A stretch of DNA of 57,941 bases from Alloalcanivorax mobilis (GTDB lineage Bacteria > Pseudomonadota > Gammaproteobacteria > Pseudomonadales > Alcanivoracaceae): positions 1 through 57,941 of the forward strand of contig NZ_NMQZ01000039.1 in the NCBI RefSeq assembly GCF_002864685.1, given 5' to 3'. Both the position numbers and the translations under genes were made by a program. The first letter of the stretch is position 1, and the number at the start of each line of letters is the position of its first letter. This document shows positions 9,588 to 53,318 of this stretch, in pieces. The notes under the pieces were generated by a model. It saw nothing but the letters and a program-made list of their open reading frames with translations, ran no database searches and was not told the origin of the DNA.

Positions 9588-9693
9588 AGCAACAAGCTGC
9601 AAGCGACAAGCCACAACGCGGAACAGACGCCAACGATCCGCCGGGCCTTGCCCGCGACCAGCGGTCTGCTTGCAGCCTGAAGCTTGCAGCGGG
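9588..9693. repeat. CAAGC-word inverted element
   Basis: The words CAACAAGCTGCAAGCGACAA (from 9590) and GCTTGCAGCCTGAAGCTTGC (from 9669) form imperfect inverted arms of about 25 nt around a GC-rich core. This is the weaker form of the heptamer-arm family detailed at 41513, 25735 and 38303. It fills the gap between gap and tesB. Confidence 0.5.
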
Positions 9694-9705
9694 CGCCCAG
9701 CGCCC

Positions 9706-10581
9706 TTAAACCGGCTCCGCGCCGGGGCGCAGGCGCATCAGGCCTTCCTGGGCCACCGAGGCGACCAGGGTGCCGTCTTCGCGATAGATAGCGCCGAAGG
9801 TCAGGCCGCGCGCGCCGGCGGCGCCGGGGCTTTCGCAGTGGTACAGCAACCATTCATCGATACGAAAATCATCGTAAAACCACATGGCGTGATCGAGGCT
9901 GGCGCACTGCACGTTGCCCTGCCAAAAGGTCATGCCGTGAGGCTGCATGGCGGTGCCCATGAAACCGAAATCGGAACAATAGGTCAGCAGCGCCCGCTGG
10001 GTCATGCGATCCGCCTGCACTGGATCGGGCACCCGGAACCAGATCTGCTTGAGCGGCTCGCGGGTTTCCGGCGTGAACGAGTTGCGCGGCGTCACCGGAC
10101 GGAATTCCACCGGCCGTTCACGCAGATAGGCGGCGCGGAACTTCTCCGGGATCTGCTCGGCCATCTTGAGGCGGCCCTGCTCGTCGCTGCCCAGTTCGTC
10201 CGGGTACGGCACATCCGGCATGGTGGCCTGATGGCGGGCGCCCTCTTCCTCGACCTGAAACGAGGTGGACAGGCTGAAAATCGGCCGCCCATGCTGGATC
10301 GCGTTGACCCGGCGGGTGGTGAAGCTCTTGCCGTCGCGAATCCGGTCCACGTCATAAATGATCGGCTGGCGGAAATCCCCCGGCCGCAAAAAATAGGCGT
10401 GCAGCGAGTGCACCGGGCGCTCCTCCGGCACCGTCATCGACGCCGCCAGCAACGCCTGCCCGGCCACCAGCCCCCCGAAAATGCTCTGCTGGCCATTGGC
10501 CTCGCTCTGCCCCCGGAACAGATTGTCTTCCAATCGTTCCAGATCGAACCGTTGCATCAGTTCCCGTACTGACTCTCGCAT
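9706..10581 (-). CDS. tesB: Acyl-CoA thioesterase II
   Basis: A 291-residue double-hotdog thioesterase that hydrolyses medium- and long-chain acyl-CoAs. The N-terminal hotdog carries FGGLVAGQALLAAS and VHSLHAYFLRPGD. The C-terminal hotdog carries ASLDHAMWFYDDFRIDEWLL and VASVAQEGLMRLR, which hold the family's Asp and Gln catalytic positions. ATG 10581 is preceded by GAGGAA at 8-9 nt; a longer start at 10605 has less support. It stands alone on the minus strand, divergent from mfd. In a lipid-degrading organism it may relieve CoA trapping (inference). Confidence 0.92.
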   Translation of the reverse strand: MRESVRELMQRFDLERLEDNLFRGQSEANGQQSIFGGLVAGQALLAASMTVPEERPVHSLHAYFLRPGDFRQPIIYDVDRIRDGKSFTTRRVNAIQHGRPIFSLSTSFQVEEEGARHQATMPDVPYPDELGSDEQGRLKMAEQIPEKFRAAYLRERPVEFRPVTPRNSFTPETREPLKQIWFRVPDPVQADRMTQRALLTYCSDFGFMGTAMQPHGMTFWQGNVQCASLDHAMWFYDDFRIDEWLLYHCESPGAAGARGLTFGAIYREDGTLVASVAQEGLMRLRPGAEPV

Positions 10582-10722
10582 TGCTTGTCGTTCCTCAGCG
10601 CACAAAACGCCGCAATGTTAGCACATAGCTGCACGCTGCACGCTTGCACGCGCCACGCTAAAACCCGTGCCGCCCACATAGCGGAGCGGCGCTGCCTAGC
10701 CCGCCTCGCCTTTCAGGCTCGG

Positions 10723-10872
10723 TTCGCGATCAGGGATCGCTCCCACAGTGGCGCTGTAGCAGGGCGTGCCGCGACGCGGAATGTTTTGTGGGAGCGGTCC
10801 TCGACCGCGAATCGGCGCTGCCTGGCCCGCCTCGTCTTTCAGGCTCGGTTCGCGATCAGGGATCGCTCCCAC
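10723..10872. repeat. REP-like cluster upstream of mfd
   Basis: Three 24-nt REP-type units: 10723-10746 and 10849-10872 (TTCGCGATCAGGGATCGCTC class), and 10788-10811 in the opposite orientation (GTGGGAGCGGTCCTCGACC class). They are related to the pair at 1-260. The rest of the tesB-mfd gap contains CACGCTGCACGCTTGCACGC words at 10629-10650 and TAGCGTCCAGCGTCTGGCGT at 10926-10945. Confidence 0.8.
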
Positions 10873-11002
10873 AGTGGCTCCGTGGAAGGTCGCCCCGATA
10901 CGGCGACGGTTTTGATTCTGGCTGTTAGCGTCCAGCGTCTGGCGTCCGGTTCCTTCCGCCATGCCCATCGTCTGCTACAATGCGCGCCCTCTGGAGGCAT
11001 TG

Positions 11003-14000
11003 ATGACCCTGTTACCCAACACTCCCCTGTTTCCCGCCGGCCATGAGCACTACCGCGATTGGCAAGGGCTTGGCGATGGCGCGCTGGCGGCGGTGCTGGC
11101 GGAGGCCGCCAGGGTGCCGGCGGCCGGCGCCCTGACCGCCAGCAAACCCGGGCCGCTGCTGGTGGCCGCGCCCAGCAGCAGCCGCGCGCAACAACTGACC
11201 GATGCGCTGACGTTCTATCTGGCCGGCAGCAACGTGCCGGTGATGCTGTTCCCCGATTGGGAAACCCTGCCCTACGATCTGTTCAGCCCGCATCAGGACA
11301 TCATCAGCGATCGCATCCGGGTATTGAACTGGCTGGGCACGGCGCGCGCCGGGGTGCTGGTGGTGCCGGTCAACACGCTGATGCAGCGGCTGGCGCCGCC
11401 GATGCACATCAGCGGCAACAGTTTTGCCCTGCGGGTTGGCGAGCGCTTCGACATGGAAGCCACCCGGGAACAGCTGGTCTCCTGCGGCTACCGCCAGCGC
11501 GACAACGTCTACGAGCACGGCGAGTTCGCGGTGCGCGGGGCGATCATGGACATCTTCCCGATGGGCTCCGACCAGCCGTTCCGGGTCGAACTGTTCGACG
11601 ACGAGATCGAATCCCTGCGGCTGTTCGACCCGGAGAGCCAGCGCTCCACCGGCCAGGTCGACGACATCAATCTGCTGCCCGCCGCCGAGTACCCGCTCAG
11701 CAGCGAAGGGGTGCGCCATTTCCGCAATGCGTTTCGCGACGCCTTCGATGTGGAACCGCGCAAGGTCACTCTGTACCAGGACGTGTCCGAAGGCATCGCC
11801 ACCCCGGGTGTGGAATATTACCTGCCGCTGTTCTATGACCAGCTCGCCACCCTGTTCGATTATTTGCCCGGCAACGCACGGGCGGTGGAAATGGCCGGCT
11901 GCGACGAGGCGGCGCGGCACTTCTGGGACGAAGTCAACGAGCGCTACGAATCCCGCCGCCACGATATTCGCCGGCCGATTCTGCCGCCCGCGTCTCTGTT
12001 TCTGCGACCCGAGGAGCTGAATGGCGCCTGGCAGCGGCTGCCCCGCGCCCGGCAGAAGGACTCCGCTCAGGCGGTGCGCTTCCCGGTGGCGCCGTCGCCG
12101 GATGTGTCCGCCGACGCCCGCGCGCGCAACCCGCTGGCGGCGCTGCACACCTTCGCCGACGCCCACCCGGACACGCGCATTCTGGTGGTGGCGGAAACCG
12201 CCGGCCGGCGCGAGGCGCTGCTGGAGCTGATGCAAAAAATCGGCATCCAGCCGGCGCTCAAGGACGGCTGGCAGGATTTCGTCGCTGATCCGCAACGCTG
12301 GAACCTCACCCGGGGCGAGTTGGACAGCGGCTTCCATGCCCCCGACCACGAAATTCTGGTGGTCACCGAGAGCCAGCTTTACGGCGAGCGCATTATGCAG
12401 CGCCGCCGGCGCCGCACCAGCGAGGAAAGCGGCAACGAAATGGGCATGCGCTCGCTGGGCGAGCTCAGCGCCGGCGCGGCGGTGGTGCATCTGGACCACG
12501 GCGTGGGCCGCTACCAGGGCCTGGTGCACATGACCGTGGACAATCAGGCCCACGAATTCCTGCTGCTGGAATACGCTGGCGGCGACAAGCTCTATGTGCC
12601 GGTTTCATCTTTGCACCTGATCAGCCGCTACGGTGGCGGCGACAGCCCGCCGCTGAACCGGCTCGGCACCGAGCAATGGAGCAAGGCGCGCCAGAAAGCG
12701 GCGGAAAAGATCAACGATGTGGCCGCCGAGTTGCTCAACACCTACGCGCGCCGCGAGGCGCGCACAGGGCGCGGCTTCCCGGTCGAGGCCGAGGAATACC
12801 AGCGCTTCGCCGCCGGCTTTCCGTTCGAGGAAACCCCGGACCAGGAAAGCGCCATTCGCGCGGTGCTCAGCGATATGCAGTTGGAAAAGCCGATGGACCG
12901 GCTGGTGTGCGGCGACGTCGGCTTCGGCAAAACCGAGGTTGCCATGCGCGCCGCCTTCGTGGCGGTGCAAAACGGCACCCAGGTAGCAATCCTGGTGCCC
13001 ACCACCCTGCTCGCCCAGCAGCACTACGAATCCTTTGTCGACCGTTTCGCCGACTGGCCGGTGAACGTCGAGGTGATGTCGCGTTTCCGCAGCGCCAAGG
13101 ACAAAGCCCAGGTGCTGGAGCGGCTCAAGGCCGGCAAGGTGGACATCGTGGTGGGCACCCACCAGCTTTTGCAGGAATCGGTGACGTTCGCCGACCTGGG
13201 GCTGATTATCGTGGACGAGGAACACCGCTTCGGGGTGCGCCACAAAGAGCGCCTCAAGGAGATGCGCGCCGAGTGCGACATCCTCACGCTGACCGCCACG
13301 CCGATCCCGCGCACCCTGAACATGGCGATGAGCGGCATGCGCGACATTTCCATTATCGCCACGCCGCCGCAGAAGCGGCTGTCGGTGAAAACCTTTGTGC
13401 AACAGCGCGACGGCACCGCCATCAAAGAGGCGATTCTGCGTGAGTTGCTGCGCGGCGGGCAGGTTTATTTTCTGCATAACGACATTGATACGATGGCGCG
13501 CACCGCCGAGGAACTGCGCGCCATGGTGCCCGACGCGCGCGTTGGCATCGCCCATGGGCAAATGCGCGAGCGCGAGCTGGAGGCGGTGATGGGCGACTTC
13601 TACCACCGGCGTTTCAACGTGCTGGTGTGCACCACCATCATCGAAACCGGCATCGACGTGCCCAGCGCCAACACCATCATTATCGAACGCGCCGACAAAC
13701 TCGGCCTGGCCCAGCTTCACCAACTGCGCGGCCGCGTCGGGCGCAGCCATCACCAGGCCTACGCCTACCTGATCACGCCACCGCCCAAGGCGATGACCAA
13801 GGACGCCCAGAAGCGGCTTGAAGCGATTGAAATGGCCACCGACCTGGGCGCCGGTTTCGTGCTCGCCAGCCAGGATTTGGAAATCCGCGGCGCCGGCGAA
13901 CTGCTCGGCGAAGAGCAGCACGGCAACATGGAAACCATCGGTTTTTCGCTCTACATGGAAATGCTCGAACAGGCGGTGGACGCCCTCAAGCGCGGCGAGC

Positions 14001-14479: not shown

Positions 14480-14499
14480 CGCGGTGGTGGGTCTTTTTT

Positions 14500-14620
14500 T
14501 GTAGGAGAGACCCCGGTAGAAGCCCCGGTTTCTGTAGGAGAGGCCGGGCGGCGTTCCGCCCTGCCAGCGACGGTTTTGATCTTCGCGTCGGAGGTTCGAG
14601 GCAAAACCCACCGGGTACGG
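14500..14620. repeat. TGTAGGAG / CCAGCGACGG mosaic fragment
   Basis: The gap after mfd holds two TGTAGGAGAG words, then GCCAGCGACGGTTTTGATCT followed by TCGCGTCGGAGG. The same words in the same order occur at 36866-36930, and partly at 31785-31850. No clear terminator is seen beyond a T7 run at 14493-14499. Confidence 0.5.
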
Positions 14621-14624
14621 GCAT

Positions 14625-15617: not shown

Positions 15618-15631
15618 GCGTAAGCCTCCCA

Positions 15632-18136: not shown

Positions 18137-18548
18137 CGGCCCGATGGCCTGGCGGCTTCAACCACAATGCGCGCGAGCAAGCGCCCCGTCGTGAAGGCCA
18201 CGTGCGCGATTACCACATTGCGACATTCGGATACCGGCACGGAAAAAGGCTTACACAGAGATCGTAAAAGTTTCACGGTTTGACGACGGGGAAACGGAAA
18301 CAGCGGGGTTTGTTGAGCGGGGAGACAAGTTTCAGGCGGCAGGCTTCAGGCGGCAACACGGGCGATGCCGTGGTGGGTCGGAGGCCGTGCCCGCGCGGTT
18401 GCGTTGGACGTGTGACGTCGGACGTCGGACGTCGGACGCCAAAATTAAGACCGTCGCTGGCCGCGTGGTACGGCGTGGTTGCCGCCACCCGTGAAGACGC
18501 AGCCCCCTGAACACTGAACACTGAAAACTGAACACTCTTCCCAACGCC
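18137..18548. repeat. Mosaic intergenic repeats (CAGGCGG, GACGTCG, ACTGAACACTGAA words)
   Basis: No gene is seen in this gap of about 450 nt. It contains TTTCAGGCGGCAGGCTTCAG at 18328-18347, an AGGCCGTGCCCGCGC word near 18379, three GACGTCGG heptamers at 18414-18436, GACCGTCGCTGGCC at 18449-18462, and CTGAACACTGAACACTGAAA from 18508. These are the same word families found in other gaps, here chained without clear inverted arms. Confidence 0.6.
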
Positions 18549-23967: not shown

Positions 23968-24468
23968 GGAGGGGAAGATACAGGATGCAGGATGCAGGAT
24001 ACAGCGCGGGCACCGCCGTGCGGTGGTTTCAGGCTTCAGGCTTCAGGCTTCAGGCGTCTGACGTCTGACGTCTGACGTCTGACGTCTGGCGTCTGGCGTC
24101 TTAGAGCGCTGGACGCCGGACGCTGGACGCTGGACGCTGAACCCGAGACGGCGGGGCTTTGCGGCAGCGCGGGCAACGCTTGCGCAGCCGCAATGCTTTC
24201 CGTTCCGGGGTTTGATCTTAGCGTCTAGCGTCTCGCGTCTGGCGTCTGGCGTCTGGCGTCGGGCGTCTGGCGTCTGGCGTCTGGCGTCTGGCGTCTGGCG
24301 TCTGGCGTCTTAGAGCGCTGGACGCCGGACGCCGGACGCTGGACGCTTAACCCGAGACGGCGGGGCTATGCGGCAGTGCGGGCAACGCTTGCGTAGCCGC
24401 AATGCTTTCCGTTCCGGGTCTTGATCTTAGCGTCTAGCGTCTAGCGTCTGGCGTCTGGCGCATAGCCA
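23968..24468. repeat. Large heptamer array with a 209-bp tandem duplication
   Basis: No coding content. It opens with ACAGGATGCAGGATGCAGGA (23978-23997), then four TCAGGCT heptamers (24028-24056), then at least six GACGTCT/GGCGTCT heptamers. A unit beginning TTAGAGCGCTGGACGCCGGA starts at 24101 and again at 24310 (period 209). Each copy has a left arm of GGACGCx words, a core containing CCGAGACGGCGGGGCT, GGGCAACGCTTGCG and CCGCAATGCTTTCCGTTCC, and a right arm of AGCGTCT/GGCGTCT words. Between the copies about ten GGCGTCT heptamers run in tandem (24236-24308). The arms are inverted relative to each other, so each copy can fold into a long hairpin. Confidence 0.88.
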
Positions 24469-25734: not shown

Positions 25735-25884
25735 GCTTCAAGCTTCAGGCTGCAAGCTCCAACACGAATCGAGGTTGCCCGGTTTACGAAAGGCCAACGC
25801 CCGCGCCGTGACCGGTGCGCGGGCAGAGCCGTTCAACCCACTCACACGGCTGACGTGCTGTAGCTTGAAGCTTGTAGCTTGCCG
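25735..25884. repeat. CAAGCTT-word inverted element between topA and the DUF6586 gene
   Basis: Left arm 25735-25760 (GCTTCAAGCTTCAGGCTGCA...) and right arm 25858-25884 (GTAGCTTGAAGCTTGTAGCT...) are inverted sets of about four 7-nt words, around a core of about 97 nt. The right arm ends at the topA stop codon. Confidence 0.75.
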
Positions 25885-29400: not shown

Positions 29401-29465
29401 GTTGAACGTTAAAAGTTGAAAGGAGCGGCCTGATGGCCGCTTGCCGATCTCAACCTTCAACTTGC
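29401..29465. repeat. GTTAAAA-word inverted element after the usp gene
   Basis: Left arm 29401-29421 (GTTGAACGTTAAAAGTTGAA) and right arm 29451-29464 (TCAACCTTCAACTTG) flank a short core with the palindrome GCGGCC-TGAT-GGCCGC. It begins 6 nt after the usp stop, so it may act as a transcription terminator or mRNA-stabilising hairpin. Confidence 0.7.
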
Positions 29466-31764: not shown

Positions 31765-31862
31765 GGGTGTTCAGTGTTCAGTTTAGGAGCAGGCCTGGCC
31801 AGCGGCGTTTTTGATTTTGATTTTGATCTTAGCGTCTAGCGTCTAGCGTCTAGCGTCTGGCG
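31765..31862. repeat. Mosaic of TTCAGTG, TAGGAGC and AGCGTCT words
   Basis: Between convergent genes: GTGTTCAGTGTTCAGTTTAG (31768-31787), GGAGCAGGCCTGGCCAGCGG (31786-31805), three TTTTGAT words, then four AGCGTCT heptamers ending at 31862. No Rho-independent terminator is obvious. This is the same vocabulary as at 24.0-24.5 kb and 36.86-37.01 kb. Confidence 0.65.
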
Positions 31863-36613: not shown

Positions 36614-36797
36614 CCTACTTTCTTGCTTGTCCAAGAAAGTAGGCAAGGAAGGACACCCCGATGTGTCGCCCTTCTGGTTCCCGAGCCGCGGGAACTTGAT
36701 GGCCGGGTCGGCGGCGAGACGACATCCTGTCGTCCGCCACCTCAGTTGGCCGTCCCTGGCCAACTGACCCTATCAATTTCCCGCGACTCGGCGACAC
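36614..36797. repeat. Multi-hairpin structured element
   Basis: Consecutive perfect stems: 36614-36625 with 36632-36643 (CCTACTTTCTTG, 12 bp), 36677-36683 with 36689-36695 (GTTCCCG, 7 bp), 36719-36724 with 36728-36733 (ACGACA, extended by GGCGG/CCGCC at 36710-36714 and 36734-36738), and 36743-36751 with 36758-36766 (CAGTTGGCC, 9 bp). Long-range arms 36681-36694 and 36778-36791 (13 of 14 pairs) and 36663-36670 with 36790-36797 (8 of 8) enclose the inner hairpins. The CTTTCTTG...CAAGAAAG...CACCCCGATG words recur in other gammaproteobacterial genomes in my memory. Open frames across it are not protein-like. It could be an RNA or a mobile hairpin element. Confidence 0.7.
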
Positions 36798-36856
36798 AAC
36801 AAGGGGGAAGACCCTCCAGATCAGCACCCGGCGAACCGTAACGCTGACCGCCTTTC

Positions 36857-37013
36857 TACAGCGCCGAGTAGGAGCAGGCCCAGCCAGCGACGGGTTTGAT
36901 GCTGGTTTTCGCGTCGGACGTCTGACGCAAAACCCGTCAGGTTCGGGGCAAAGACACCGTGCCATTCGGCCAAAAACCGTCGCTGGCTGGGCCTGCTCCT
37001 ACTCGGCGTTGTA
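36857..37013. repeat. Long inverted repeat (TAGGAGCAGGCC module)
   Basis: Arms 36857-36896 and 36974-37013 are near-perfect inverted copies (about 38 of 40), reading CTACAGCGCCGAGTAGGAGC then AGGCCCAGCCAGCGACGG. The core contains GCGTCGGACGTCTGACGC and AAAACCCGTCAGG, which pairs with the left-arm end. Bases 36362-36480 upstream of the structured element also hold a degenerate REP end (CGCGATCAAAGATGGCTCCC at 36379-36398), so the whole 36240-37153 gap is repeat-built with no gene seen. Confidence 0.85.
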
Positions 37014-37043
37014 GATATTCTCTGGCGCGCTAATCGTGGATAA

Positions 37044-37149
37044 GAAGTGTTCAGTGTCTGGTTTCCAGTGTTCAGAAAGGGCGCGGGCACGGGCTCTGCC
37101 CCACCCCGGCCTCGCTCGTGTTGCAGCTTGAAGCTTGAAGCTTGCAGCC
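37044..37149. repeat. TTCAGTG and AAGCTTG word clusters upstream of the pyrD stop
   Basis: AAGTGTTCAGTGTCTGG and CCAGTGTTCAGAAAGG (37047-37079) form a loose inverted pair. AGCTTGAAGCTTGAAGCTTG (37125-37144) is a tandem heptamer run ending 10 nt from the pyrD stop. Confidence 0.6.
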
Positions 37150-38302: not shown

Positions 38303-38366
38303 GGCCACAAGCTTCAAGCTGAAAGGGCCGTTGCAACCTGAAGCTTCGAGCTTGGAGCTTGTGGCC
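38303..38366. repeat. CAAGCTT-word inverted element
   Basis: Left arm 38303-38324 (GGCCACAAGCTTCAAGCTGA) and right arm 38345-38366 (TTCGAGCTTGGAGCTTGTGG...) are inverted with about 20 of 22 matches around a 20-nt core. The AGGCCGTGCC word lies at 38268, and its reverse complement near 38388. The element sits between pepN and pyrD. Confidence 0.8.
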
Positions 38367-38415: not shown

Positions 38416-41052
38416 TTATAAAATCCGATCAAGCACCTCCGCCAGGTTGGCGGAGGTGCCGTCGCGGACGGTTTGCAGGGCGTCGCGCAGTGGCTGTTGC
38501 AGCGGCGGCGCCAGGCGCTCCAGGCGGGCGGCGCCATTGGCGAGCCGGGCGGCGATCTGCGGGTTGATGCCGTCGAGCTTTTTCAGTGCCGTGGCGAACA
38601 GGCGGTAGCCGCTGCCGTCGGCGGCGTGGAACGCCGAGGGGTTGCCGTTCACCAGGGTGCCGATCAGCGCCCGCACCCGGTTCGGCAGGGTCCATTCGAA
38701 TGCCGGGTGATCCAGCAACGCTCGCGCCCGGGCCACGGTGTCCGCGCCGGGCACGGTGGCTTGCACGGCGAACCATTGGTCGATGACCAGGGCTTCGTCG
38801 TGCCAGCGGGCCTCGAAGGCACGCAGCGCCTGATTGGCGCCGTCCAGATCGTTGTGCACCAGGGCGCGCAGGGCGCCCAGTTCCTCGGTCATGCAGGTGG
38901 GGTGATCCAGGCTGCGCTGCAGGTGCGCGGTGATTTGATCGGCTTCGATCAGGCCGGCGCCGGCGGCGCTGGCCAGGTAGCCCAGCGCCAGTTGCCGCAG
39001 ACGGCGCTTGCCCATGGCGTCGCCGTCGGCGCGGTAGCGCGGCTCATAAAGCGTTTCCGCGAGCCGCCACCAATGTTCGGCGAGCGCCTCGCCGAGCGCC
39101 GCGCGCAGGCCGCTGACGGCGGCATGCACCGGTTGCGGGTCCAGGGGCGAATGGCGATCGCCAACCGCTGTCTCGGTGGGCAGGGTGAGCAGCAGGGCGG
39201 CCTCCGCCGGGTCTTCGCCGGCGCGCTCAATCACCTGTTCCAGCACCGGCCGCAGCCGTGCCACCTGCGCCGCTGACGACCCGGGGTGGTCGATCATTTC
39301 CGCCAGCGCCATGAAATAGAGCCGTTGGGCGGCGTCCCAGCGGCAGAAACCGTCGGTGTCGAACGCCAGCAGAACATGCAATTGCGCTTCCTGGAACGGA
39401 TAACGCAGCTCCACCGGCGCCGAGAAGCCGCGCAGCAGCGAGGGCACCGGGCGGGCCCGGGCCGGGAAGTTAAACGTCTGCTCCGCCTCGCCCAGAGTCA
39501 CCACGGTTTCCACATCACCGGCATCGTTGAGCGGCAAGGCCTGGCCCTGATCGTCGAGCAGCGCCAGCCGGACCGGGATCATTAGCGGTTGTTTGTCGGG
39601 CTGCCCGGGCGTGGCAGGGGTGTGCTGGCGCAGCGTGAGCCGGTACTCGCCTTGGCCCTGGGCCGGCTCGAAGGCGTCCTCGACGGTCACCACCGGGGTG
39701 CCCGCCTGGCTGTACCAGCGCTTGAACTGGCTCAGATCCTGGCCGGAAATCTCCTCCATGCAGGCAACGAAGTCGTCGCAGGTCACCGCCTGGCCGTCGA
39801 AGCGCTGGAAATACAGATCGGTGGCGCGGCGGAAATCGTCGGCGCCCAGCAGCTGGCGCTGCATGCGCACGATCTCCGAGCCTTTTTCATAGATCGTCAG
39901 GGTGTAGAAATTATCGATCTTCTGGTATTCCGCCGGGCGCACCGGGTGGGCCATGGGCCCCTGATCCTCGGGGAACTGATGGTTGATCAGGAAATCCACG
40001 TTCTCCACCCGCACCACCGTGCGGGAGTTCATGTCGGAGGAAAATTCCTGATCCCGGAAGACCGTGAAGCCTTCTTTGAGACTCAGTTGAAACCAGTCCC
40101 GGCAGGTGACCCGGTTGCCGCTCCAGTTGTGGAAATATTCGTGGGCGACCACCGATTCGACCCGCTCAAAGGCGGCGTCGGTGGTGGTGGCCGGGTGCGC
40201 CAGCACGCAGGAGGTGTTGAAGATATTGAGGCCCTTGTTCTCCATGGCCCCCATATTGAAGTGGCTCACGGCGACAATCTGGAACAGGTCGAGATCGTAT
40301 TCACGGCCATACACCTGCTCGTCCCAGGCCATCGCCCGCTTGAGCGAATCCATGGCGTGGTCGAGCTTGTCCAGATCACGGTGCTCGGCGTACAGGCGCA
40401 ACGCGATCTCACGGCCGGTCTCGGTGGTAAAGGTGTCTTCCAGGCAGGCCAGATCACCGGCTACCAGGGCGAACAGATAGCAGGGTTTGGGAAACGGGTC
40501 TTCCCAGGTGACAAAATGCCGGCCGCCCGGTTCGTCACCACGGGCCACCGGATTGCCATTGGAGAGCAGCAGCGGGTAGCGCTGCTTGTCCGCGTGCAAG
40601 GTGGTGGTGAAGCGGCTGAGCACGTCGGGACGGTCCGGAAAGAAGGTGATGCGGCGGAACCCTTCGGCTTCGCATTGGGTGCAGTACATGCCGTTGGAAC
40701 GGTACAGGCCTTCCAGCGCGGTGTTGTTCTCCGGCTCGATGCGCACCCGGGTGCTCAGCAGGCAGCGCTCGGGCAGCCCGGCAATCGTCAGGCGGCCGCC
40801 TTGCAGCTGGTACTCGCTCTGTTTGAGTGCCCGGCCATCCACACTGAGTGCTTCCAGGCGCAGATGATCGCCGTTGAGCACCAGTTCATCGGGGCGGTCC
40901 TGGCGCGCCGGGTTGCGCACCAGTTGCAGCTCGGTGCTGACCACGGTGTGGCCGTCGTGAAGGTCCACGTCCAGGCGGGTGTGCTCAACCAGATAGGCCG
41001 GCGGCTGGTAATCCGCCAGTCGCGTCACCGCGGTCGGGTTGCCGTCTCTCAT
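38416..41052 (-). CDS. pepN: Aminopeptidase N
   Basis: 878 residues (E. coli 870), M1 metallopeptidase. The exopeptidase motif is GAMENKGLNIF. The zinc site HEYFHNWSGNRVT begins at His304 with the Glu downstream in LKEGFTVFRDQEF. It removes N-terminal residues from peptides in the cytoplasm. The C-terminal helical domain appears complete (ends AEVLDRIL). Its start overlaps the stop of the YeaC-like gene, so the two are coupled. Confidence 0.97.
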   Translation of the reverse strand: MRDGNPTAVTRLADYQPPAYLVEHTRLDVDLHDGHTVVSTELQLVRNPARQDRPDELVLNGDHLRLEALSVDGRALKQSEYQLQGGRLTIAGLPERCLLSTRVRIEPENNTALEGLYRSNGMYCTQCEAEGFRRITFFPDRPDVLSRFTTTLHADKQRYPLLLSNGNPVARGDEPGGRHFVTWEDPFPKPCYLFALVAGDLACLEDTFTTETGREIALRLYAEHRDLDKLDHAMDSLKRAMAWDEQVYGREYDLDLFQIVAVSHFNMGAMENKGLNIFNTSCVLAHPATTTDAAFERVESVVAHEYFHNWSGNRVTCRDWFQLSLKEGFTVFRDQEFSSDMNSRTVVRVENVDFLINHQFPEDQGPMAHPVRPAEYQKIDNFYTLTIYEKGSEIVRMQRQLLGADDFRRATDLYFQRFDGQAVTCDDFVACMEEISGQDLSQFKRWYSQAGTPVVTVEDAFEPAQGQGEYRLTLRQHTPATPGQPDKQPLMIPVRLALLDDQGQALPLNDAGDVETVVTLGEAEQTFNFPARARPVPSLLRGFSAPVELRYPFQEAQLHVLLAFDTDGFCRWDAAQRLYFMALAEMIDHPGSSAAQVARLRPVLEQVIERAGEDPAEAALLLTLPTETAVGDRHSPLDPQPVHAAVSGLRAALGEALAEHWWRLAETLYEPRYRADGDAMGKRRLRQLALGYLASAAGAGLIEADQITAHLQRSLDHPTCMTEELGALRALVHNDLDGANQALRAFEARWHDEALVIDQWFAVQATVPGADTVARARALLDHPAFEWTLPNRVRALIGTLVNGNPSAFHAADGSGYRLFATALKKLDGINPQIAARLANGAARLERLAPPLQQPLRDALQTVRDGTSANLAEVLDRIL

Positions 41053-41493: not shown

Positions 41494-41628
41494 CCGTGCC
41501 GGTCGAGAGCCCGTTGAAAGTTAAAGGTTAAAAGTTGAAACGCGGGCGGGGCCGCACAATACGGCAAGGCCGTGCCCGCGCTTGAAGCGGTCCAGAACCA
41601 CTTCAACTTTTAACCTTTAACTTTCAAC
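41494..41628. repeat. GTTAAAG-word inverted element A (perfect 27-bp arms)
   Basis: Left arm 41513-41539 and right arm 41602-41628 are perfect 27-bp inverted copies beginning GTTGAAAGTTAAAGGTTAAA. The 62-nt core has CGCGGGC (41541-41547) pairing with GCCCGCG (41574-41580). The left flank CCGTGCCGGTCGAGAGCCC (41494-41512) recurs beside the element at 47213. The right arm ends 5 nt before the nadK stop, so read from nadK the element lies directly downstream and could terminate its transcript. Confidence 0.92.
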
Positions 41629-41632
41629 TTGT

Positions 41633-47193: not shown

Positions 47194-47372
47194 CCGTGCC
47201 GGTCAAGAGCCCGTTGAAAGTTAAAGGTTAAAAGTTGAAGGGTGGTCGCCGAGGGGCTTTCCCGCGGCCTGCGGCCGTGGAAGGCCGCCGCGAGGGCTCC
47301 CTTGGCGCGGGCACGGCCTTACCGTCGTGTGGGCCCCGCCCGCGTTTTAACTTTTAACTTTTAACGTTCAAC
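47194..47372. repeat. GTTAAAG-word inverted element B (core flipped relative to element A)
   Basis: Left arm 47213-47239 is identical over 27 bp to the left arm at 41513, and the preceding CCGTGCCGGTCAAGAGCCC (47194-47212) matches the element A flank with one change. The right arm 47344-47372 (GTTTTAACTTTTAACTTTTA...) is a less exact inverse. The core segment 47305-47344 (GCGCGGGCACGGCCTTACCG...) matches the reverse complement of element A's core (41541-41581), not its forward strand. The extra 65 nt at 47240-47304 is self-complementary GC-rich sequence. Confidence 0.85.
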
Positions 47373-47394
47373 TGGCGAAGCCATCCCTTTACAA

Positions 47395-47412
47395 ACCAAG
47401 CGCTTGCTTGGT
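47395..47412. promoter_or_regulatory. Candidate TetR operator of the atu operon
   Basis: ACCAAGC-GCTT-GCTTGGT, a perfect 7-bp inverted repeat with a 4-nt centre. It begins just after a -35-like TTTACA (47388-47393) and covers the spacer, 43 nt before the atuA start. A repressor here would block polymerase. Confidence 0.65.
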
Positions 47413-47454
47413 AGCTTACTGAACACCTTTACTCATCGCAATCAGGACATCCGC

Positions 47455-49236
47455 ATGACCGAACCCGTCCGCATCGGCTGCGCCGCCGGTTTCTGGGGTG
47501 ACACCAACTCCGCTGCTTTTCAGTTGGTGCGTCAGGCCGACATTGATTATCTGGTGTTCGACTATCTGGCCGAGGTGACGTTGTCGATCATGGCCGGTGC
47601 GCGGATGAAGGACCCGGCGGCGGGGTACGCCCACGATTTCGTGACCCAGGTGATGGCGCCGCTGGCGAAAGAGATCAAAGAGAAGCGCATCAAGGTGATC
47701 AGCAACGCCGGGGGCGTCAATCCCCATGCCTGCCGGGAGGCCCTGCAAAAGGCCTTCGCGGAGGCTGGCGTGGAGATGAACATCGCCCTGGTGGAAGGCG
47801 ACGATCTGAACCCGCGCCGGGGCGAGTTCGCCGAATGCCGGGAGCTGGACAGCGGCGAGCCGATGCCGCCGATGACCGTGACCATGAACGCCTACCTCGG
47901 CGCCCTGCCGATCAAGCAGGCGCTGGACGACGGCGCCGATCTGGTGCTCACCGGCCGCATCGCCGATTCGGTGCTGGCATTGGGCCCGCTGATGCACGAG
48001 TTCAACTGGTCGGTGGACGATTACGACAAGCTTGCCCAGGGCTCTCTGGCCGGCCATGTGATTGAATGCGGCGCCCAGTGCAACGGCGGCAATTTCACCG
48101 ACTGGCGCCTGGTGCCGGATTTTCACAACATGGGTTTTCCCATCGCCGAGTGCCACGCCGACGGCAGCTTCGTGATCGCCAAGCCAGAGGGCACCGGCGG
48201 CCTGATCACCACCGCCACGGTGGGCGAGCAGATCGTCTATGAGATTGGTGATCCACGCGCCTACATTCTGCCCGACGTGGTGTGCGATTTTACCGGCGTG
48301 ACCCTGGAGCAGGCCGGCGACAACCGGGTGCGGGTCAGCGGCGCTTGCGGGCGGCCGCCCACCGACACCTATAAAGTGTCCGCCACCTGGCCGGATGGCC
48401 AGCGCATCACCGCCTCGTTTCTGATGGCCGGCATCGACGCGCCGGATAAAGCCCGCGTGGTGGCTGACGCCATTGTCAAAAAAGTCGGCGGCCTGTTCCA
48501 ACAAATGGGCCTGGCGCCGTTCCGCGAGGTGAACATCGAAATTCTCGGCACCGAAACCACCTACGGCGCCAACGGCCGGCGCGGCGACACCCGCGAGGTG
48601 GTGGTGAAAATCGCCGCCTTGCACGACGACCGCAAAGCGCTGGGGCTGTTTGCCCGGGAGATCGCCCAGGCCGCCACCGGCATGGCGCCGGGGCTCTCCG
48701 GCCTGGTCGGCGGGCGGCCCAAGCCGATGCCGCGTATTCGCCTGTTCTCGACCCTGGTGCCGAAAACCGCCGTCACCGCCAGCGTGGACCTCAATGGCGA
48801 GCGCCGCGAGGTGCCGATCCCCGCCGGCGAAGCGCTCGACCCGGCCACCCTGCCCGACACCAACGGCACGGAAACCGCCACCGGCGAGGTCGAGGTGCCG
48901 TTGGTGAAACTGGCCTGGGCGCGCTCCGGCGACAAGGGCGACCACGCCAATATCGGGGTCATCGCGCGCCACGCCCGCTACCTGCCCTACTTGCGCGCCG
49001 CGCTCACCGAGCAGGCCGTGGCTGACTACATGGAACATGTGCTCAACCACCCCGCCAGCGCCGTGCAACGCTGGGAAATGCCCGGCTTCAACGCCTTCAA
49101 TTTCCTGCTCAAAAACGCCCTCGGCGGCGGCGGCATCGCCAGCCTGCGCATCGACCCGCAAGGCAAAGCCTTCGCCCAGCAGTTGTTGGATTTTCCGGTG
49201 CCGGTGAGCGCGGAGATCGCGGAGAGCGTGCGATGA
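47455..49236 (+). CDS. atuA: AtuA-like acyclic terpene utilisation protein (DUF1446)
   Basis: 593 residues. DUF1446 N-terminal domain ([59 protein letters not shown]) followed by a C-terminal AtuA-type domain ([20 protein letters not shown]). AtuA is required for growth on citronellol/geraniol in Pseudomonas, but its reaction is not settled. ATG 47455 follows AGGACATCCGC. It is the first gene of the operon with repeats in its leader. Confidence 0.9.
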
Positions 49237-49238
49237 GG

Positions 49239-49379
49239 GGCCGGACGCTGGACGCCGGACGCCGGACGCTTCAACCCGTGGCGGAAAGGCCCGGCGTGTT
49301 TTCTGCAGCGTGTTAGGAAACACGCCGATAATCTCAGCACCGGGTTAAGCGTCGAGCGTCCGGCGTCCGGCGTCCGGCC
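49239..49379. repeat. GGACGCC-word inverted element between atuA and the SDR gene
   Basis: Left arm 49239-49278 (GGCCGGACGCTGGACGCCGG...) and right arm 49341-49379 (CGGGTTAAGCGTCGAGCGTC...) are nearly perfect inverses made of five 7-nt words each, ending AACCCG/CGGGTT. Core 62 nt. The left arm starts 3 nt after the atuA stop. Confidence 0.9.
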
Positions 49380-49413
49380 AACCATCCATAATCGTATAGA
49401 GGACCTTGCCCCC

Positions 49414-50286
49414 ATGCCCTACCGCTCCGTCTTTCACCCCAATCTGTTCGCCGATAAAACCGTGATCGTCACCGGCGGCGGGTCCGGCATTGGCCGGTGC
49501 ACCGCCCACGAACTGGCGGCACTGGGCGCCCGGCTGGTGCTGATCGGCCGCAAGGCGGAAAAACTGCAGACCGTGGCCGCTGAACTGCTTGAGGACACCG
49601 GGCGCGAAGCCCTGTGCTTCGCCTGCGACATCCGCGATGAGGAAGCCGTACGCGACACCGTGGCCGCCATCTATCAGCAAACCGGCCGCGTGCACGGGCT
49701 GGTCAACAACGCCGGCGGCCAATTCCCCGCGCCGCTGGCAGCGATCAATCAGAAGGGCTGGGAAACGGTGGTGCGCACCAACCTCACCGGCGGTTTTCTG
49801 ATGGCCCGCGAAGTCTTTACCCAGGGCATGAACGAGCACGGCGGCGCCATCGTCAATATCGTCGCCGACATGTGGGGCGGCATGCCCGGCATGGGCCACT
49901 CCGGCGCCGCCCGCGCCGGCATGGTCAATTTTACCCAGACCGCCGCCTTCGAGTGGGCCCAGTGTGGCGTGCGCGTGAACGCGGTGGCGCCGGGCTGGAT
50001 CGCCTCATCGGGCATGGACACCTACCCGGAGGGTTTCAAGCAAACCCTGAAAACCCTGAAAGCGGCGGTGCCGCTCAAGCGCATGGGCCTGGAATCGGAA
50101 GTGTCCTCGGCGATCTGCTTTCTGCTCAGCGAGGGCGCCGCTTTTATCAGTGGCGACACGCTGCGCATCGACGGCGCCGCCAGCCAGGGCAATATGTCGA
50201 TCTTCCCGCTCGCCGAGCACACCAACAGCCAACCCTACGATGGCTTTCACCGCGCCATCGTTCCGGACATTTTCAAGGATCTGTAA
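49414..50286 (+). CDS. atuB: SDR-family dehydrogenase/reductase, AtuB-like
   Basis: 290 residues. NAD(P)-binding TVIVTGGGSGIGRCTAHELA and NNAGG are intact. The catalytic YxxxK is replaced: the aligned segment reads GMGHSGAARAGMVNFTQTAA, the HSGAARAG form found in peroxisomal trans-2-enoyl-CoA reductases, with no Lys. AtuB is proposed to act in citronellol/citronellal oxidation. With this site an enoyl-CoA reductase-like role is possible. The stop overlaps the next gene (TAATG). Confidence 0.85.
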   Translation: MPYRSVFHPNLFADKTVIVTGGGSGIGRCTAHELAALGARLVLIGRKAEKLQTVAAELLEDTGREALCFACDIRDEEAVRDTVAAIYQQTGRVHGLVNNAGGQFPAPLAAINQKGWETVVRTNLTGGFLMAREVFTQGMNEHGGAIVNIVADMWGGMPGMGHSGAARAGMVNFTQTAAFEWAQCGVRVNAVAPGWIASSGMDTYPEGFKQTLKTLKAAVPLKRMGLESEVSSAICFLLSEGAAFISGDTLRIDGAASQGNMSIFPLAEHTNSQPYDGFHRAIVPDIFKDL

Positions 50287-51902
50287 TGCCCGTGATCGAA
50301 TCCAGCCTCGACACGCAAAGCGAGGCGTACGCTCAGAACCGCCAGGCCCTGCTGGAGGCGGTGGCGCAGTTCCGCGCCATCGAGCAGCAAGTGCTGGACA
50401 CCGCCGAAAGCAAACGGGAAAAGTTTGAAAAACGCGGCCAGCTTCTGCCCCATGAGCGGGTCGCCCGGCTGCTGGACCCGGGGTCGCCGTTTCTGACCCT
50501 GATGAATCTGGGCGGCTATAAGATGCACGACGACCGCGACGGCACCGAAGCCGGCGGCGGCGTGATCGCCGGCATCGGCTATGTAAGTGGCGTGCGCTGT
50601 CTGGTGTCGGCGTCCAATTCCGCCATCAAGGGCGGCACGGTAACGCCCTCCGGGCTGAACAAAACCCTGCGCCTGCAACGCATCGCCCTGGAAAACAAAC
50701 TGCCGGTGGTGAGCCTGGTGGAATCCGGCGGCGCCAACCTCAATTACGCGGCGGAGGTGTTCGTGGAAGGCGCGCGCACCTTCGCCAACCAGGCGCGGCT
50801 GTCCGCCGCCGGCATCCCGCAGATCACCGTGGTGCACGGCAACGCCACCGCCGGCGGCGCCTACCAGCCCGGCTTGTCCGACTACGTGGTAATGGTGCGC
50901 AACCGGGCGAAGATGTTTCTCGCCGGGCCGCCGCTGCTCAAGGCCGCCACCGGCGAAATCGCCAGCGACGAGGACCTGGGCGGCGCCGAGATGCACGCCG
51001 GCGTCGCCGGCACCGCCGAATACATCGCCGAGAACGACGCCGATGGCATTCGCCATGCCCGCGATATCGTCGCCAAACTGGGCTGGCAAGACAGCGCCCG
51101 CGACCGGCGGCGCGGTGACTGGCAGCCCCCCCGCCACGACGCGCAGGAACTGCTGGGCATCGTGCCCGCGGACACCAAGACACCCTACGATGTGCGCGAA
51201 CTTCTGGCGCGCATCGCCGACGCTTCTGACTTTCTCGATTTCAAGAACGATTGGGACGCCGCCACCGTGTGCGGCTGGATCAGCATTGAAGGCCAGCCCG
51301 TGGGCGTGCTCGGCAACAACGGCCCGATTACCCCGCGCGGCGCCGCCAAGGCCGCCCAGTTTATTCAGCTTTGCGACCAGACCCGCCGGCCGCTGCTGTT
51401 TCTGCACAACACCACCGGCTTTCTGGTCGGCACCGATCCGGAACACAACGGCGTGATCAAACACGGCTCGAAAATGATTCAGGCGGTGGCCAACGCGCGC
51501 GTGCCGAAGATTTCGATTCTGGTGGGCGGTTCCTACGGCGCCGGCAACTACGCCATGTGTGGTCGCGGCCTGGACCCGCGCTTTATTTTCGCCTGGCCCA
51601 ATTCCCGGGTGGCGGTGATGGGCGGCCAGCAGGCCGGCACGGTGCTGCGTATCGTCGCCGAAGCCAAACAGCGCGCCAACGGCCTGGAACCCGACGAAAA
51701 AGTGCTCGACATGCTGCAGCAAAGCACCGCCCAGAAACTGGACGCGCAATCCACCGCGCTCTACGGCACCGCCCGCCTCTGGGACGACGGCATCATCGAC
51801 CCCCGCGACACCCGCAAAGTGCTGGCGTACGTGTTGGATATTTGCCGGCAGGCGGACGACAAACAGCTGCATCCGAATACGTTCGGGGTGGCGAGGTTTT
51901 AA
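50286..51902 (+). CDS. atuC: Geranyl-CoA carboxylase, carboxyltransferase (beta) subunit
   Basis: 538 residues, acyl-CoA carboxylase beta family. Two carboxyltransferase halves: VVSLVESGGANLNYAAEVFV and VVHGNATAGGAYQPGLSDYV in the N-half, LLFLHNTTGFLVGTDPEHNG and ILVGGSYGAGNYAMCGRGLD in the C-half. It moves CO2 from biotin to geranyl-CoA. A methylcrotonyl-CoA carboxylase is very similar in sequence; the atu neighbours (AtuA, AtuD, AtuE) favour the geranyl enzyme. The ATG overlaps the SDR stop. Confidence 0.87.
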   Translation: MPVIESSLDTQSEAYAQNRQALLEAVAQFRAIEQQVLDTAESKREKFEKRGQLLPHERVARLLDPGSPFLTLMNLGGYKMHDDRDGTEAGGGVIAGIGYVSGVRCLVSASNSAIKGGTVTPSGLNKTLRLQRIALENKLPVVSLVESGGANLNYAAEVFVEGARTFANQARLSAAGIPQITVVHGNATAGGAYQPGLSDYVVMVRNRAKMFLAGPPLLKAATGEIASDEDLGGAEMHAGVAGTAEYIAENDADGIRHARDIVAKLGWQDSARDRRRGDWQPPRHDAQELLGIVPADTKTPYDVRELLARIADASDFLDFKNDWDAATVCGWISIEGQPVGVLGNNGPITPRGAAKAAQFIQLCDQTRRPLLFLHNTTGFLVGTDPEHNGVIKHGSKMIQAVANARVPKISILVGGSYGAGNYAMCGRGLDPRFIFAWPNSRVAVMGGQQAGTVLRIVAEAKQRANGLEPDEKVLDMLQQSTAQKLDAQSTALYGTARLWDDGIIDPRDTRKVLAYVLDICRQADDKQLHPNTFGVARF

Positions 51903-51906
51903 TGCG

Positions 51907-52003
51907 GTTGAAAGTTAAAAGTTAAAAGTTGAAAGGGCGGCTCCGCCGAAAATCTCTACCAATGCCGACCACGGAGCGCGCCTTTTAACTTTTAACTTTT
52001 AAC
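51907..52003. repeat. GTTAAAA-word inverted element between atuC and atuD
   Basis: Left arm 51907-51934 (GTTGAAAGTTAAAAGTTAAA...) and right arm 51981-52003 (CCTTTTAACTTTTAACTTTT...) around a 46-nt core that contains GCGGCTCCGCCG. It begins 5 nt after the atuC stop. Confidence 0.88.
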
Positions 52004-52057
52004 CCGCCGGAAAACAATGAACCCGTTTTAACGAATACTAACACCCAGGAGCGCCCC

Positions 52058-53215
52058 ATGCTGTTTACCCAGGAACACGAAGAGCTGCGCCGTACGGTGC
52101 GCAATTTTATCGACAAAGAAGTGAACCCTTATGTGCCGGAGTGGGAGGCGGCGGGCCGGTTTCCGATCCATGAGGTGTTCAAGAAGATGGGCGATCTGGG
52201 TTTGCTCGGGGTGACCAAACCCGAGGAGTACGGCGGCATGGGGCTGGATTATTCCTACGGCCTGATTGTCGCCGAGGAAATTGGCGCCGCCCATTGCGGT
52301 GGTGTGCCGCTGTCGATCGGCGTGCAAACCGACATGGCCACGCCGGCGCTGGCGCGTTTTGGCTCCGATGCCTTGAAACGCGACTATCTCGCGCCGGCCA
52401 TTGCCGGCGACATGGTGGCGGCGATCGCGGTGTCCGAACCCCAGGCCGGCTCCGATGTGGCGCAAATCAAGACCAGCGCCCGCAAGGACGGCGATGACTA
52501 CGTGATCAACGGCACCAAGATGTGGATCACCAATTCCCCCAGCGCCGATTTCTTTTGCCTTCTCGCCAACACCTCCGAAGACAAGCCGCACGTCAATAAG
52601 TCCTTGATCGTGGTGCCCGGCGATACCGCTGGCATCACCGTGGACAAGCCGCTCAATAAGCTGGGCATGCGCAGCTCGGAAACCGCCCAGGTGTTTTTCG
52701 ACAACGTGCGGGTGCCGCGAAGCAACCTGATCGGCCAGGAAGGCATGGGCTTCATGATGCAGATGATGCAGTTCCAGGAAGAGCGCCTGTGGGGCGCCGC
52801 CAACTCCATCAAGGGCTGTGAAAAGGTGATCGCCGCGACCATTGAGTACGCCCGCGAGCGGCAGGTGTTTGGCATGCCGTTGCTCGATAATCAGGCGGTG
52901 CACTTCCGTCTCGCCGAACTGCAAACCGAAGTGGAACTGCTGCGCGCTCTGGTGTGGCAGGCCTGCGAAACCTACATCAACGGCGGCGACGTGCTGCGCC
53001 TAGCGTCGATGGCCAAGCTCAAAGCCGGGCGCCTGTCCCGCGAGGTCGCCGACGGCTGCATGCAGTATTGGGGCGGCAACGGTTTTATGTGGGACAACCC
53101 GGCCAGCCAGCTCTACCGCGACGGCCGCCTCGGCTCCATCGGCGGCGGCGCCGACGAAATCATGCTCGGCATTATTTGTAAGACCATGGATATGTTGCCG
53201 GGTAAGAAAAAATAA
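52058..53215 (+). CDS. atuD: Citronellyl-CoA dehydrogenase-like acyl-CoA dehydrogenase
   Basis: 385 residues, FAD-dependent acyl-CoA dehydrogenase. Motifs: AIAVSEPQAGSDVAQIKTSA (FAD contact), YVINGTKMWITNSPSADFF, and the C-terminal DGCMQYWGGNGFMWDNPASQ with YRDGRLGSIGGGADEIML. In the atu route it makes cis-geranyl-CoA from citronellyl-CoA. GGAG lies 7 nt before ATG 52058. Family members of other substrate range are hard to exclude; the operon decides. Confidence 0.88.
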   Translation: MLFTQEHEELRRTVRNFIDKEVNPYVPEWEAAGRFPIHEVFKKMGDLGLLGVTKPEEYGGMGLDYSYGLIVAEEIGAAHCGGVPLSIGVQTDMATPALARFGSDALKRDYLAPAIAGDMVAAIAVSEPQAGSDVAQIKTSARKDGDDYVINGTKMWITNSPSADFFCLLANTSEDKPHVNKSLIVVPGDTAGITVDKPLNKLGMRSSETAQVFFDNVRVPRSNLIGQEGMGFMMQMMQFQEERLWGAANSIKGCEKVIAATIEYARERQVFGMPLLDNQAVHFRLAELQTEVELLRALVWQACETYINGGDVLRLASMAKLKAGRLSREVADGCMQYWGGNGFMWDNPASQLYRDGRLGSIGGGADEIMLGIICKTMDMLPGKKK

Positions 53216-53217
53216 GA

Positions 53218-53318
53218 GTTGACAGTTTAAAGTTAAAAGTTAAAGGCGGCTCCGTAAACGAGCACGCCAGCTTTGCGACGAAGCCGCCCTTGCAACTTTT
53301 AACCTGTAACTTTCAACT
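53218..53318. repeat. GTTAAAA-word inverted element between atuD and atuE
   Basis: Left arm 53218-53244 (GTTGACAGTTTAAAGTTAAA...) and right arm 53292-53318 (GCAACTTTTAACCTGTAACT...) around a 47-nt core with GGCGGCTCC...CGCCC. It begins 2 nt after the atuD stop. Confidence 0.85.

Follow-up and report, generated by a model that had tools for sequence, protein, structure and literature searches.

Intergenic spacers in a 57,941-nt stretch of Alloalcanivorax mobilis DNA (contig NZ_NMQZ01000039.1, positions 1–57,941; hereafter the window) carry elements in which two inverted arms, each a tandem array of a 7-nt word, enclose a short core. Comparison of these elements with other loci suggests that they are, on balance, non-coding relatives, similar to miniature inverted-repeat transposable elements (MITEs), of elements in which a gene for IVP, a small four-helix-bundle protein of family PF05635 (23S_rRNA_IVP, also called S23p), is framed by inverted arrays of 7-nt words, that is, of the class of the 23S rRNA intervening sequences. 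As judged from sequence, the architecture of these intervening sequences occurs here between genes: the window elements are located between protein genes and not within a 23S rRNA gene. No PF05635 match was found in the window, the two matches of its genome (G000) being on contigs C18 and C64, and because no IVP gene lies between their ends the window elements are called non-coding relatives and not full members. We infer that the elements move and that IVP recognizes their word.

The host is an Alcanivorax-type marine bacterium, and its genome was compared with those of its genus (13 genomes, G000 included), a sister genus (17 genomes) and 16 other members of the family. Intergenic gaps with inverted arms of tandem words exactly 7 nt long fall into at least four families, GTTRAAN, GACGCYN, GATNCAG and CAAGCYN. 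Reading of the sequence confirmed inverted heptad arms in all ten spans named by an earlier sequence-only reading of the window, together with its observation that one architecture is built from several words. A strict test, requiring two lag-7 arrays and ungapped inverted pairing, recovered five of the ten spans as seven rows (24107–24460, 41513, 47213, 49243 and 51907); three of the rows come from 24107–24460, one of them an outward pair between two adjacent copies. The arms at 9588, 25735, 38303 and 53218, which the strict test missed, are weaker, and 29401–29465 has three units in its left arm and about two degenerate units in its right. The range of three to five units per arm given previously is too narrow, since a 13-unit arm occurs in the window and arms of up to 25 units are present elsewhere in the genome. 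Further arrays, some with differing words on their two sides, had gone unlisted at 10628–10659, 18407–18536, 23977–24101, 31767–31862 and 37121–37148. The features of the window are the following, none with an assigned strand:

9588–9693, CAAGCYN element whose arms are degenerate; its core motif, at 9645, has one mismatch
10628–10659, lone heptad array of GCTGCAC type
18407–18536, hybrid element with a left GACGTCG array and a right CTGAACA array
23977–24101, GATRCAG array followed by a TTCAGGC/CGTCTGA array, within a compound of adjacent elements
24107–24310, GACGCYN element with a 79-nt core and a 13-unit right arm
24316–24460, GACGCYN element with an 80-nt core; copy of the element at 24107–24310 (209-nt direct repeat)
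25735–25881, CAAGCYN element
29401–29465, GTTRAAN element with a degenerate right arm
31767–31862, hybrid element with a GTGTTCA array and a TAGCGTC array
37047–37148, hybrid element with left GTGTTCA units, a right GCTTGAA array and the core motif at 37082
38303–38366, CAAGCYN element
41513–41630, GTTRAAN element with 27-nt arms that are 100% complementary; core motif at 41569
47213–47372, GTTRAAN element with a 108-nt core; core motif at 47306
49240–49378, GACGCYN element in the spacer that separates atuA from the next atu gene
51907–52003, GTTRAAN element in the atuC–atuD spacer; genomes G009, G004 and G003 have a GTTRAAN element in the same spacer
53217–53319, GTTRAAN element in the atuD–atuE spacer

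The 7-nt period is highly specific. Strict runs in the window number 14 at lag 7, compared with 0–1 at lags 4–6, 8–13, 15 and 16 (the double lag, 14, has 7), and one dinucleotide-shuffled copy of the window has no lag-7 runs. In 160 kb of G000 picked blind there are 17 runs at lag 7, 13 at lag 14 and 0–2 at the other lags between 4 and 16. A looser score, applied to 560 kb, found 107 lag-7 and 91 lag-14 arrays and 2–12 at lags 4, 5, 8, 10, 11, 13 and 16, which are the lags to compare, as codon periodicity inflates those divisible by three. Moreover, the inverted-arm test on all sampled stretches returned 64 pairs at lag 7 versus 0, 0, 1, 1 and 1 at lags 5, 8, 10, 11 and 13. The excess of lag 7 over other lags and over the shuffled copy argues that the arrays are not due to chance. 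Of the 28 stretches of G000 sampled, the first eight were blind and several of the next 20 cover places already known as matches, so densities were drawn from the blind ones only. In 100-kb samples of two congeners, lag-7 arrays numbered none (G006) and four (G002), not above other lags.

The 64 paired arrays, which come from congeners as well as from the window and the genome sample, sort into word families, each with its own unit; additional types are GACGTCN, found beside GACGCYN, ACTGAAN and CACGCNN. Within each word some positions are near-invariant and one or two are free. For example, position 4 of GATNCAG is T, G, A and C in 19, 19, 16 and 1 units, and each of the other six positions has one letter in 52–55 of 55. 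Such fixed and free positions appear to resemble a recognized site. The cores are also structured: those of GACGCYN elements are about 80 nt long, often starting with TAAACCC and finishing with GGGTTTTGATCTTA, and those of the GTT, GATNCAG and CAAGC elements often have CGCG at both ends and the motif CGCGGGCACGGC in common. Allowing at most one mismatch, this motif has 28 intergenic sites, 26 of them within 140 nt of a heptad pair (171 of 1000 for random intergenic points), and 27 additional genic sites; eight shuffled motifs yield 1–9 intergenic sites. The figure of 26 of 28 is partly circular, because the motif was first spotted in elements of the same data, and the point is its sharing among word families. 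In the sister genus, most CAAGC elements that were read likewise have CGCG ends and inner palindromes. GTT elements have the layout A-run, GC stem, T-run. The complementary ends of the window elements could form a long stem. At gathering thresholds, Rfam gave no match on the elements and three matches elsewhere in the window, among them, in the region 36668–37015, a TwoAYGGAY RNA (minus strand, 51.8 bits) that adjoins a 43-nt, 95% inverted repeat at 36855–37015. One candidate for a large element with arms around a gene (contig C27 of G000, 39369–40968) turned out on reading to comprise a single complete element together with right-hand half elements and ordinary genes.

The connection with IVP is seen in genome G014, where CAAGC arms 550 nt apart enclose an open reading frame of 112 aa and a PF05635 match falls at that spot; the encoded protein also matches the solved structure 2gsc (XCC0516 of X. 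campestris, E = 3e-14). A solved IVP homologue is a pentamer. Of the genomes compared, PF05635 has matches in 12 of 13 from the window's genus, in 16 of 17 from the sister genus and in one of the 16 from elsewhere in the family, and the two IVP-rich genera are the same two that have GTTRAAN, GACGCYN and CAAGCYN units. Heptad frames at the fetched IVP loci include GACGTCN, GACGCYN, CACGCNN, GTTRAAN, CAAGCYN, GATNCAG, GCAAGGR, AGTTGAY and others. G000 itself has two IVP genes, with GACGCYN arms (locus L302) and CAAGCYN arms (L301), two of its abundant words.

Framing was counted at 71 IVP loci with gene bounds set by homology or annotation: 31 from the family (L207 and 30 more of the 65 places listed), 28 from Pseudomonadota (the 29 best among the matches listed, minus the clipped L277; 62 of 398 genomes have an IVP match) and 12 from plasmids of cyanobacteria and others (out of 23 records). 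L257 (duplicate of L241), L258 (period 6 by eye) and L259 (incomplete) were left out, and misplaced gene bounds at L231, L232 and L256 lower the counts. Lag-7 arrays occur within 160 bp of the IVP gene on both sides at 15 of 31 family, 16 of 28 Pseudomonadota and 9 of 12 plasmid loci (40 of 71 in total), and on at least one side at 28, 25 and 9 of them (62 of 71). By comparison, arrays on both sides were found in 0 of 2000, 0 of 1600 and 0 of 54 control windows (0 of 3654 in total; either side, 86, 37 and 4). Even in G000, a heptad-rich genome, only 3 of 118 genes of 240–600 nt have arrays on both sides and 20 on either. The Fisher p for two-sided framing is 5e-18. An inverted repeat scoring at least 14 connects the flanks of 48 of the 71 IVP loci versus 1 of the 118 control genes. 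Two-sided arrays at the 71 loci exist at lags 7 and 8 only, with lag 9 one-sided in six; L272, L297, L299 and L300 have period 8 in place of 7. Among a further 20 Pseudomonadota loci, hand-picked from the same matches and taken with 200-bp flanks, five have arrays on both sides and 16 on either. The IVP itself is, by dN/dS values of 0.03–0.20 in 12 of 13 pairs (the thirteenth being saturated), under purifying selection. As a separate observation, three of the 12 plasmid IVP genes (L292, L298 and L299) reside within cyanobacterial CRISPR-Cas clusters, twice between cas6 and cas4 and once between cas10 and a cmr3-type gene.

Furthermore, the word co-varies with the protein. Across the loci with a lag-7 array (62 loci), mean word distance falls from 0.517 at 35–45% protein identity to 0.345 at 55–70% and 0.113 above 90%. 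In a Mantel test on 39 IVPs less than 70% identical, word distance and protein identity correlate with r = −0.29, a value reached in 0 of 5000 permutations, and within the family (15 IVPs) with r = −0.44 (p = 0.0004); when the word is read as its reverse complement, the correlation is weaker (r = −0.14, p = 0.02). At one orthologous IVP locus, in an apparent apsK-type/transporter spacer, different species have GTTRAAN, CAAGCYN, GATNCAG, GAGTTRC or CAAGTTK arms, both arms switching word together (at least five words). In G004, G005, G007, G033 and G034 this spacer has only 13–70 nt between its anchors. The comparison covers 18 loci, G002, G012 and G016 having been dropped as misjoined or not aligned. 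Two other groups of loci were noted, with neighbours named by eye: at L227–L231, L234, L235 and L238, IVP sits in an apparent metK–ahcY spacer with GACGTCN, GACGCYN or CACGCNN arms depending on the species, and L251, L252, L253, L255 and L303 form a distinct IVP branch of about 118 aa with AGTTGAY/AATTGAT-like arms, beside an apparent nrdR or glyA. In G009, a non-coding GTT element and the GTT IVP element of that genome agree at 19 of 20 nt just inside the arm. For GTT ends, for which this match was scored (other words were compared by reading), 8 of 45 reach at least 12 of 20 nt, versus 27 of 2000 shuffles.

It could be argued that IVP genes are passengers that settled in pre-existing heptad hairpins with a mover of their own. 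IVP has no known catalytic domain, and the copy number of a word is only loosely tied to the word of the IVP, both of which fit such a scenario. We nevertheless consider it unlikely, because the framing holds in genomes whose IVP surroundings lack it (the 54 control windows situated 0.8–1.2 kb from an IVP gene have no two-sided arrays), the word follows the IVP sequence, IVP is under purifying selection, and two-sided framing extends far outside Alcanivorax. The sequence-only reading regarded the words as unrelated and set selection on hairpin shape against descent from one ancestral mobile sequence. The fixed and free positions of every word, the core motif common to three families and the IVP gene in full-length relatives speak against unrelatedness, and that choice omits a third option, namely, many words in one element class.

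The position of the elements was analysed with genes called by a home-made codon-usage caller. Of 46 element rows from the window and the genome sample, 43 were placed between called genes, two overlap a gene call and one is at an edge. The 43 comprise 16 tail-tail, 22 tail-head and five head-head gaps, compared with 60, 240 and 73 among all gaps of at least 20 nt; the tail-tail enrichment has a Fisher p of 0.0003, which is rough because some rows occupy one gap. A similar tail-tail bias is described for intergenic repeat families of P. fluorescens, some of which have terminal inverted repeats (PMC2718517). Tail-head rows are closer to the stop codon in 19 of 22 cases (all rows; the statistical test of stop side used 18 of 20) and within 20 nt of it in 18 of 22. 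Location just after stop codons, previously described as constant, is thus a strong tendency and not a rule, the element at 47213–47372 lying between divergent genes.

These sites, after stop codons and in tail-tail gaps, are what would favour another explanation, that the elements resemble repetitive extragenic palindromes (REPs) or bacterial interspersed mosaic elements (BIMEs) and are hairpins kept for the shape of their RNA, for mRNA 3′-end protection or bidirectional termination, with the words as filler. The A-run, GC stem and T-run of GTT elements and the inner palindromes of the cores point the same way. Selection or repair of the pairing would make the kth units of the two arms of an element more similar than units one position apart, and more similar than units from the arms of different elements. 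The first part of this prediction fails: in-register identity is 0.862 for GACGCYN arms (22 elements) versus 0.868 and 0.864 when shifted by one unit, and 0.915 for GTTRAAN arms (15 elements) versus 0.891 and 0.918. As for the second part, shuffling arm partners among elements did as well in 80 of 2000 trials for GACGCYN, a weak within-element excess, and in 1769 of 2000 for GTTRAAN, no excess. Unit numbers of the left and right arms are likewise uncorrelated in GACGCYN and GTTRAAN elements (Spearman 0.15 and 0.25, p = 0.51 and 0.37), the arms being unequal in length. Arm co-variation as proof of hairpin selection was rejected on the register and partner-shuffle tests, and the earlier appeal to hairpin shape is not supported. 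Since RNA shape also leaves the fixed and free unit positions and the IVP framing unexplained, and since elements sit within a run of atu genes, we regard it as improbable.

Another candidate is simple replication slippage, in which polymerase geometry would favour heptamers and template switching at small palindromes would produce the inverted arms. Neighbouring GACGCYN units within an arm are more alike (0.944 and 0.913) than units of different elements (0.835 and 0.834), which is a trace of slippage; long pure arrays also occur, and polymerase slippage is among the ideas quoted for heptamer excess (PMC4692102). To this extent the slippage proposed in the sequence-only reading is retained. 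As the whole explanation it is quite improbable, given that it accounts neither for fixed versus free positions nor for one word in many dispersed copies, patchy among genomes, nor for IVP framing and word–protein co-variation. The remaining candidate, that the elements are MITEs of a REP-associated tyrosine transposase (RAYT), is very improbable, as the earlier reading anticipated: although all 13 genomes of the genus have such Y1 transposases (PF01797), and the same spacers are occupied by REP-type palindromes, none of 12 Y1-transposase loci (of 48 places listed) has any of six heptad patterns or a lag-7 array, so that RAYT is disfavoured as the partner. Integron attC sites, considered for their 7-nt GTTRRRY boxes, were dropped as they leave the other words unexplained. 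The window does contain palindromes of the type of REPs and REP doublets forming hairpins (REPINs), TGTGGGAGCGGTC..GACCGCGAA, at 20–235 and 10720–10873, in tandem 126–130-nt repeats that are separate from the heptad class.

The elements show turnover among congeners. Four of those in the window belong to an acyclic-terpene-utilisation (atu) region, whose genes were named from Pfam matches and gene order, one before atuA and three between atu genes; among the named relatives found, an Alcanivorax sp. contig comes closest, with 86% AtuC-type identity. In the orthologous spacers of the 12 congeners there are different words, REP-type palindromes, half elements, core-less arms, or nothing. For instance, the word in the atuA/atuB spacer is GACGCYN in G012 as in the window and GATNCAG in G009 and G006, and in G003 and G004 this spacer has REP-type palindromes; nested elements occur in G003 and G010. 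In the atuD/E spacer of G005 (L128) and the atuA/B spacer of G002 (L130), core-less palindromes of joined arms, GATACAGGATGCATCCTGTATC and GGTCGGACGTCTGACGTCAGACGTCCGACC, were noted, as if the loop had been exactly lost. The atuE–atuF spacer of the window (54141–54303) holds a 52-nt inverted repeat of CCCTCTCCCT type without heptads.

Word abundance is similarly uneven, as measured by overlapping three-unit matches on both strands (matches, not elements). GTTRAAN has 243 in G000, 120 in G003, 103 in G009 and 0 in seven congeners, GACGCYN 712 in G000, 507 in G012, 117 in G005 and 0 in four congeners, and CAAGCYN 236 in G000 and up to 401 in the sister genus; among eight genera of the family, all three words are confined to these two. 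GATNCAG occurs in 9 of the 13 congeneric genomes, in one genome from a different genus and, in a class-wide sample, in 2 of 274 genomes. With the reversed pattern as control there is hardly any background except for GTTRAAN (15 vs 243 in G000, 13 vs 20 in G020, 10 vs 12 in G028), and GTT counts in parts of the sister genus mean little because the control there about equals the pattern. At 80 other named loci (1.48 Mb), 20 lag-7 arrays were found versus 10–24 at eight other lags, and several at one locus only at L021 (Alcanivorax) and L037 (Desulfobacteraceae). The genome of L037 has no IVP match; 3 of the 25 genomes behind such loci have one.

Several observations weigh against a relationship of the window elements to IVP elements. 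First, abundance and IVP do not go together well: G005 has 117 GACGCYN matches and no IVP match, the arms of the two IVP genes in G012, where there are 507, are of CACGCNN and AGTTGAY type, G000 has its 243 GTT matches and no GTT IVP, and GATNCAG matches number eight in G006 despite a GATNCAG IVP and 39 in G009, with a GTT IVP. Second, in four close pairs, with blocks about 88–96% identical, no clean insertion turned up, deletion or wholesale replacement appearing to account for the differences, and these comparisons showed no target-site duplication. The poor tracking of IVP word by copy number and the missing insertion are the chief gaps. Third, the frame has exceptions. Of the 48 Pseudomonadota loci, 24 have no inverted repeat scoring at least 14 (10 of 28 and 14 of 20) and at 27 a lag-7 array is present on only one side or absent, with a weak one-sided lag-9 array at 6 of 28 and 5 of 20; at L258 (Nannocystaceae, G324), outside the counts, IVP is framed by a GGGCAC array with period 6 by eye. 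The loci are also not independent, several being orthologues (at least 8 of the 31 family loci share one spacer) and the best scores being listed first. With half of the Pseudomonadota loci lacking a good inverted repeat, many orthologues and one period-6 locus, the heptad-frame rule is strong and not universal. Finally, the matching inner end stands out at few loci, several of the eight matching GTT inner ends are orthologues of one site, and GACGCYN elements have a different core from the three motif-sharing families.

If the elements are nevertheless relatives of IVP elements, IVP would read the word, on RNA or DNA, keeping the units of both arms to one word, and would act in trans on non-coding copies, which may spread by copying into gene 3′ ends. 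There a folded insert would be least harmful and could be trimmed by RNase III, like rRNA intervening sequences. The description of PF05635 is of a plain four-helix bundle that lacks a nuclease, so the copying enzyme might, as a guess, be a host enzyme or a reverse transcriptase acting in trans. Avd, whose fold is homologous to that of IVP, serves reverse transcriptases in diversity-generating retroelements; copying might accordingly go through RNA. This would be a kind of selfish element without a recognizable nuclease.

Why bacterial genomes contain an excess of heptamers, and how 23S rRNA intervening sequences arose and what they do, are long-standing questions hitherto treated apart. With an architecture common to the two and a named protein, both become testable, there being one family of proteins, a single word in each element, binding of the two as a prediction, and natural protein–word pairs across species, and the link between IVP and heptads may account for 7-letter repeats described in other bacteria. 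In the open-licence literature we found no report tying IVP to inverted heptad arrays outside rRNA. As a tentative generalization, there might be a class of bacterial mobile hairpins in which a pentameric IVP recognizes a word of 7 or 8 nt that recurs in the two inverted arms, the protein and its word change in concert, and non-coding copies multiply in trans. Such a class would bring together 23S rRNA intervening sequences and the heptamer repeats found between genes in cyanobacteria, Xanthomonas, Geobacter, Beggiatoaceae and Alcanivorax.

Of the known systems, REP/REPIN sequences with their RAYT resemble the elements in being extragenic palindromes after genes, many per genome and lineage-specific, and differ in being short palindromes without tandem units, as described in PMC3733652; the Y1-transposase loci here are without heptad arms. 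The TAACTGA repeats of Beggiatoaceae are abundant intergenic tandem heptamers of one word, but they are found mostly just upstream of start codons, as direct repeats with one indirect repeat, and are read as post-transcriptional signals, the account in PMC4679880, as far as consulted, making no mention of IVP. The GGGAATC heptamers of Xanthomonas and the GGGGAYT heptamers of Nostoc are mostly intergenic and nearer one flanking gene, with 70 and 75 convergent heptamer pairs in two Xanthomonas genomes; they were studied as G-quadruplexes, and the terms S23 and four helix are absent from the main text (PMC4692102). In Geobacter metallireducens, three classes of arrays of tandem 7- to 9-nt units (four octamers, three units and five heptamers in classes 1–3) are mostly paired on opposite strands at variable distance, like the arms here, and MTYCTGA, the word of class 3, fits the reverse complement of a GATNCAG-type word. 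In that description, by which alone they were compared, they are read as sites of global regulators (IHF/HU) with no link to IVP (PMC2700814). The closest parallel is the intervening sequence of the Coxiella burnetii 23S rRNA, for which mobility is one hypothesis discussed (PMC4990558). It differs in its location in rRNA helix 45, in its IVP gene, judged to be under reductive evolution whereas IVP here is under purifying selection, and in that no word families or non-coding relatives are described in that source. Yet it, too, is a short element with complementary ends around an IVP gene, and tandem heptamers (GACAGAT) are located just upstream of that gene (PMC4990558).

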